From Hyphomicrobiales bacterium (GTDB lineage Bacteria > Pseudomonadota > Alphaproteobacteria > Rhizobiales > Kaistiaceae): DNA of 6,342 bases. This document shows positions 1 to 1,049 of the stretch, in pieces (the stretch's first letter is position 1; every line of letters begins with the position of its first letter). A program made the position numbers and the translations under genes. The notes under the pieces are model-generated. The model worked only from the letters and a program-made list of their open reading frames with translations, searched no databases and had not been told where the DNA came from. Where the stretch lies: the NCBI GenBank assembly GCA_017305815.1, contig JAFKJZ010000416.1, positions 1 through 6,342 of the forward strand, in the 5' to 3' direction.

Positions 1-1049
1 GTTGTCGCCCGGCATCACCATCTCGACGCCTTCCGGCAGCGTCACCACGCCCGTCACGTCGGTCGTGCGGAAGTAGAACTGCGGACGGTAGTTGGTGAAG
101 AACGGCGTGTGACGGCCACCCTCTTCCTTCGTCAGGATGTAAGCCTCGGCCTTGAACACGGTGTGCGGCGTGACCGAACCCGGCTTGCACAGGATCTGGC
201 CGCGCTCGACGCCTTCACGGTCGATGCCGCGAAGCAGCGCGCCGATGTTGTCGCCGGCCTGGCCCTGGTCGAGCAGCTTGCGGAACATCTCGACGCCGGT
301 GCAGGTCGACTTGACGGTCGGACGGATGCCGACGATCTCGACTTCCTCGCCGACCTTGACGATGCCGCGCTCGACGCGGCCGGTCACCACGGTGCCGCGA
401 CCCGAGATCGAGAACACGTCTTCGATCGGCATCAGGAACGGCTGGTCGATCGGACGCTCCGGCTGCGGGATGTAGGCATCCACAGCGGTCATCAGCTCGA
501 GGATCGCGTCTTCGCCGAGCTTGGCGTCGCCATCCTGCAGGGCCACGACGGCCGAACCCTTGATGATCGGAATGTCATCGCCCGGGAAGTCGTAGGACGA
601 CAGCAGCTCGCGGACCTCAAGCTCGACGAGCTCGAGCAGCTCCGGATCGTCGACCAGGTCGCACTTGTTCAGGAACACGACGAGCGCCGGAACGCCGACC
701 TGGCGGGCGAGCAGGATGTGCTCGCGGGTCTGCGGCATCGGGCCGTCGGCGGCCGACACGACCAGGATCGCGCCGTCCATCTGGGCCGCGCCGGTGATCA
801 TGTTCTTGACGTAGTCGGCGTGGCCGGGGCAGTCGACGTGGGCTCGACGTGCGCCGTCGAGATCGTGATGCCGCGAGCGCGCTCTTCCGGAGCCGCGTCG
901 ATCTGGTCATACGCCTTGAACGTCGCGCCACCGGTCTTCGCGAGCACCTTGGTGATCGCCGCGGTCAGCGAGGTCTTGCCGTGGTCAACGTGGCCGATCG
1001 TGCCAATGTTGCAGTGCGGCTTGTTGCGCTGGAATTTCTCTTTTGCCAT
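1..1049 (-). pseudogene. tuf: Elongation factor EF-Tu gene, frameshifted and 3'-truncated by window edge
   Basis: EF-Tu is the cytoplasmic GTPase that carries aminoacyl-tRNA to the ribosomal A site. ATG at 1049-1047 has GGAG at 1060-1057, seven bases upstream. Frame 1 gives MAKEKFQRNKPHCNIGTIGH and on through G1 GHVDHGKT (residues 19-26) and G2 RGITIS (59-64) to HVE69. It then runs into 14 unrelated residues and a TGA at 800-798. From base 840 a second frame reads HVDCPGHADYV and stays open to the window edge: G3 DCPGH, G4 NKCD, G5 SA, domain II RGTVVTGRVERG and domain III PFFTNYRPQFYFRTTDVTG. Adding 25 bases at about 843 puts HVD at residue 79, exactly as in E. coli EF-Tu. So eight codons (expected 70-77, YETANRHY-like) plus one base are missing. 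About 38 C-terminal residues lie beyond base 1. All other codons look under full selection, so the lesion is very recent or an artefact. Confidence 0.93.

Follow-up and report, generated by a model that had tools for sequence, protein, structure and literature searches.

A frameshifted tuf in a Hyphomicrobiales draft genome is probably the assembly seam of two collapsed gene copies

The tuf gene (EF-Tu) in the DNA analyzed here breaks frame at 842/843, where 25 bases are missing. The most probable reading, to which we give a probability of roughly 85%, is that the missing bases are an assembly artifact at a collapsed two-copy tuf and not the mark of a lost gene. In that case the assembly software would have wrongly combined parts of two nearly identical copies, and the bacterium as such is probably normal. 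The window (the whole stretch of DNA analyzed, 6,342 bases) is the entire contig C601, one of 719 contigs in a 4.21-Mb draft with 92.07% completeness and 5.28% contamination. It carries minus-strand genes that we take to be rpsL, rpsG, fusA, and tuf, and it terminates within tuf, at base 1 (Table 1).

Table 1. Positions of the tuf pieces, the junction, and the neighboring genes in the window
Feature	Position	Strand	Remarks
Remaining tuf, other frame, to contig end	1..842	-	Continued by both 3' contigs; collapsed two-copy stretch
149-base stretch common to C601, C663, and C200	1..149	-	Equals C663 start (tRNA-Trp/secE side) and C200 end reversed (S10 side); divergence at base 150
83-residue ORF	798..1049	-	EF-Tu through residue 69, followed by 14 residues out of frame and a stop
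Junction, 25 bases missing versus relatives, frame change	842..843		Position uncertain by one base
tuf 5' piece, fusA side, codons 1-69 to HVE	843..1049	-	96% identity to EF-Tu of the G011 str copy (residues 1-69)
fusA	1101..3176	-	691 codons, single frame end to end
rpsG	3201..3671	-	Single frame
rpsL	3687..4058	-	Single frame

From its start at 1049, tuf runs for 69 codons (207 bases, the last residues being HVE) to 843; two bases follow, and then HVDCPGH and the remainder continue in a different frame to the contig end. This confirms the frame break with 25 missing bases that the earlier note had described. Among relatives, the gap between HVE and HVDCPGH is 27 bases at all 39 distinct tuf sites (34 other genomes) versus 2 bases in the window, and therefore 25 bases are absent here. 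These 39 sites have their 5' part inside the retrieved loci and are a subset of all tuf matches; the count omits sites retrieved twice and the five shortened records of the wide scan described below. The truncated 83-residue ORF matched 92 distinct PDB sequences, the best being 6gfu_A (EF-Tu) over residues 1 to 70, and the 60 that were listed were all EF-Tu chains, EF-Tu fusions, or designed or ancestral elongation factors. No further decay was found next to the lesion, with both tuf pieces at 95 to 96% protein identity to the str copy of the congener G011. Judged on the relatives' letters, the junction may slide by one base (a common G), and longer microhomology is absent.

None of the 39 relatives' sites carries the same 25-base lesion. 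A scan of an 84,980-species collection for any gap shorter than 27 bases yielded five records, short by 1, 1, 11, 2, and 2 bases and none of them by 25; the scan requires one exact start codon and may omit this genome and its near kin, and five is a raw count without a denominator. The 25-base shortening in the window is thus not a matter of chance. A Polaromonas MAG record (L056:898-945) has a tuf short by 11 bases in the same stretch, less than 1 kb from the contig start. A Brucella pituitosa record (L057:1293-1349) is short by 2 bases in that stretch, distant from the contig ends, and this shortening is likely a sequencing error. Four of the five shortened records lack just 1 or 2 bases, and so such errors do happen in tuf. 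Nevertheless, an ordinary base-calling or homopolymer indel error is an almost negligible explanation for the window, as 25 bases is too large and 27 other genes lack a frame break in their coding part, which makes a general frameshift error unlikely. Of these genes on C601, C663, and C200 (5, 6, and 16, respectively), 26 keep one frame across 93% or more of the congener ORF; the check used ATG-started congener ORFs on the coding strand with shadow ORFs omitted. The 27th, nusG, keeps one frame over 79% of its congener ORF, and by our reading the uncovered remainder lies inside the preceding gene, leaving the true coding part unbroken. Equally hard to credit is recoding, whereby ribosome bypass or a frame shift would still yield EF-Tu from the broken gene. 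The frame is coding and conserved on both sides of the junction, as such a reading needs, but the eight to nine residues between the motifs would be lost regardless. Those residues are kept at all 39 relatives' sites, and the gap is absent from every relative read.

The ends of the contigs show that two copies of tuf were collapsed in this assembly. The final 149 tuf bases of C601 open both C663 and, reversed, C200, and the latter two diverge from base 150. C663 continues into tRNA-Trp, beyond which lie genes that we take to be secE and nusG, and C200 continues into what is presumably the S10 operon. One 149-base tuf stretch with two distinct 3' continuations means that two near-identical copies of the gene were collapsed here, so that two tuf 3' ends are fed by a single path. 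At this fork, both the contig edges and the equal 149-base overlaps are directly seen. Because both 3' contigs continue the rest of the gene, certain membership in the str-operon copy is limited to the 207 bases next to fusA; the earlier note's assignment of the broken gene to that operon is sure for those bases alone. Identity to G011 is 92.9% for C663 (over 4.5 kb) and 92.9% for C200 (over 8.4 kb), and C200 is 93.6% identical to another congener, G009, over 8.7 kb. C601 is lower against G011, at 90.2% over 2.7 kb and 87.4% over 5.4 kb. These identities, compared to see whether C200 is a stray contig, are compatible with the three contigs coming from a single genome, short of proof.

With two copies present, a real and recent 25-base deletion could have killed the str-operon tuf, with the cell living on the copy beside tRNA-Trp and secE. 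Several observations agree with such a loss, which we nonetheless hold to be unlikely. A second tuf 3' end exists on C663, two 3' ends are present in 12 of the 13 congeners, and the other nearby genes are in frame. In enteric bacteria one working tuf can sustain growth, and strains with tufB disrupted or removed have been described (PMC5485169, PMC5574714). Against a real deletion, protein and DNA searches of the assembly for the 5' part of a second, different tuf gave a close match to the window only, whereas two alleles would be expected to leave a 5' contig each and a path broken at the junction. With the 5' part missing from the assembly, an intact second tuf, for which the earlier note had advised a search, could not be demonstrated, and the search recovered its 3' end only. 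A 3-kb query from G011 was used to look for the sequence preceding the second copy; its best match (40 of 325 candidates scored) was at the far end of the query, away from tuf. A tRNA-Tyr/tRNA-Gly pair directly precedes the second tuf in the four congeners read (G011, G009, G005, and G002), and this stretch had no match in the own genome in a search that had no positive control. A real deletion is also opposed by the absence of direct repeats at the seam, by the failure to find the same loss elsewhere (the 39 sites and the wide scan), and by the fact that tuf is a known assembly trouble spot in this genus.

That trouble is evident across the congeners. Only three of the 13 (G005, G009, and G011) carry both tuf genes at full length, separated by some 20 to 23 kb; a contig edge lies inside tuf in 10 of 13, no full-length copy is present in 8 of 13, and G012 is the one congener in which two 3' ends were not seen, having none. 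The single-contig genome G006 is cut within its second tuf, with its contig C1 ending in the 5' part and beginning in the 3' part (L076, L105). The closest parallel to the window is in G013, whose contig C1 carries a tuf with 33 bases missing relative to G006, in frame and on the 3' side. The first base past this loss, C1:250927 (L074:5928-5929), corresponds to base 1 of the sister contig C11; from the edge of the loss onward, the two contigs agree over exactly 149 bases and then diverge. At the 5' fork of the same genome, C16 and C23 have exactly 149 bases in common, which are the first 149 at the tuf edge of C1. Such a geometry fits a collapsed repeat contig that was attached to a neighbor with the loss of 33 bases at the overlap edge. 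The G013 draft with this apparent seam is rated 100% complete.

The two losses are alike in that neither has flanking repeats, tuf is collapsed from two copies in both genomes, and both have forks with 149-base overlaps. The G013 loss differs from that in the window by its 3' location, by preserving the frame, and by abutting exactly the overlap edge and the first base of a sister contig; at the window's junction, no sister contig and no contig edge were found. Slippage between direct repeats was considered and is argued against by the shared bases at the seams, one in the window and none in G013; the earlier note's view that its near-repeat was not the cause therefore holds. We also asked whether a 149-base overlap at tuf edges is a rule of the genus. 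It is not: of eight other edge pairs, drawn from seven congeners, one lacked a common start and the remaining seven were identical over 20 to 218 bases. Besides the own genome, only G013 has such an overlap.

In the seam that we propose, the fusA-side piece would have been fused at its end to the collapsed two-copy tuf piece, itself trimmed at the start, and the assembler would have dropped the 25 bases at that join. This would be the same type of seam as that behind the 33-base loss in G013, in mirror image, with the 149-base fork 3' and the loss toward the 5' side. By that analogy, we infer that the two losses share one origin; the contig geometry likewise points to a seam at the window's junction, and the living cell presumably holds an intact tuf. 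The earlier note had left the choice between a recent real loss and a two-copy misassembly. The two copies and their collapse are borne out by the contig ends, misassembly is favored by the mirror case in G013, and a real loss fares less well. Several considerations weaken the seam. A graph assembler normally requires reads across a junction. The 149-base overlap is not general in the genus, and no contig edge was found at the window's junction. Finally, there is no clean copy switch at the junction.

This last point comes from the sites that separate the two tuf copies of G009 and of G002, at which the window mixes the two types on both sides of the junction. The idea that the junction marks a change between copy types was therefore rejected. 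Comparing the two tuf copies within each genome (window:842-1049 against L048, L049, L052, and L053) gave 52 differences in 1,191 bases for G009, 18 in 755 for G002, and none in 1,191 for G005. Together with the patchwork in the window, these differences suggest ongoing conversion between the copies.

Directly past the fork, the S10-side end of tuf contains an 87-base patch (L016:7397-7483 on C200 of the own genome, G000; minus strand) that is bordered on both sides by the genus's own sequence. The patch differs from C663 at 24 of 87 bases and from G298, a genome of a different order in the same class, at 3 of 87, with 8 to 14 differences to four other genomes of G298's genus. In G298's family (199 genomes), 182 genomes match the patch query, and G298 is the best at 92% over 133 of the 161 query bases. 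Among 24 congener tuf tails, 19 span the patch with only 70 to 71% protein identity, three span residues 10 to 38 at 83%, and two (both G002) are too short to judge. The patch may be foreign gene conversion or metagenome chimerism. Joined to the frame break, it allows a further reading in which the str-operon tuf is being dismantled, with a fresh 25-base deletion near its start and 87 bases from another order's tuf at its end, while the second copy alone serves translation. We regard this as quite improbable.

The arrangement of the two copies resembles the proteobacterial tufA/tufB pair, in which one of two near-identical EF-Tu genes follows fusA and the other precedes tRNA-Trp. The Salmonella tuf copies are reported to be kept similar through gene conversion (PMC5485169). 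Different from such a pair, this draft has its copies collapsed, one 5' part missing, and an odd patch in the S10-side end. Assembly errors are known to produce apparent frameshift pseudogenes, and the spurious assembly pseudogenes of Cooley and Wright (2024; PMC11017572) are like the window's tuf: a draft genome shows a frameshift in a conserved gene that is otherwise undecayed. Unlike those cases, the loss here is of 25 bases in a collapsed two-copy gene and is judged by contig geometry. Among the titles listed by a literature search, none concerns such a tuf case.

A real deletion would mean that a strain in nature lives on one tuf alone; if the gene were being dismantled, it would offer a natural example of an EF-Tu copy that decays as foreign gene conversion rewrites it. 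Most likely, the 25-base gap is an artifact that is biologically unremarkable and serves as a useful warning. When tuf is frameshifted in a draft genome, the cause can be a seam between two collapsed copies, and contig geometry, in the form of equal fork overlaps and a loss abutting the overlap edge, can point to such a seam without reads.
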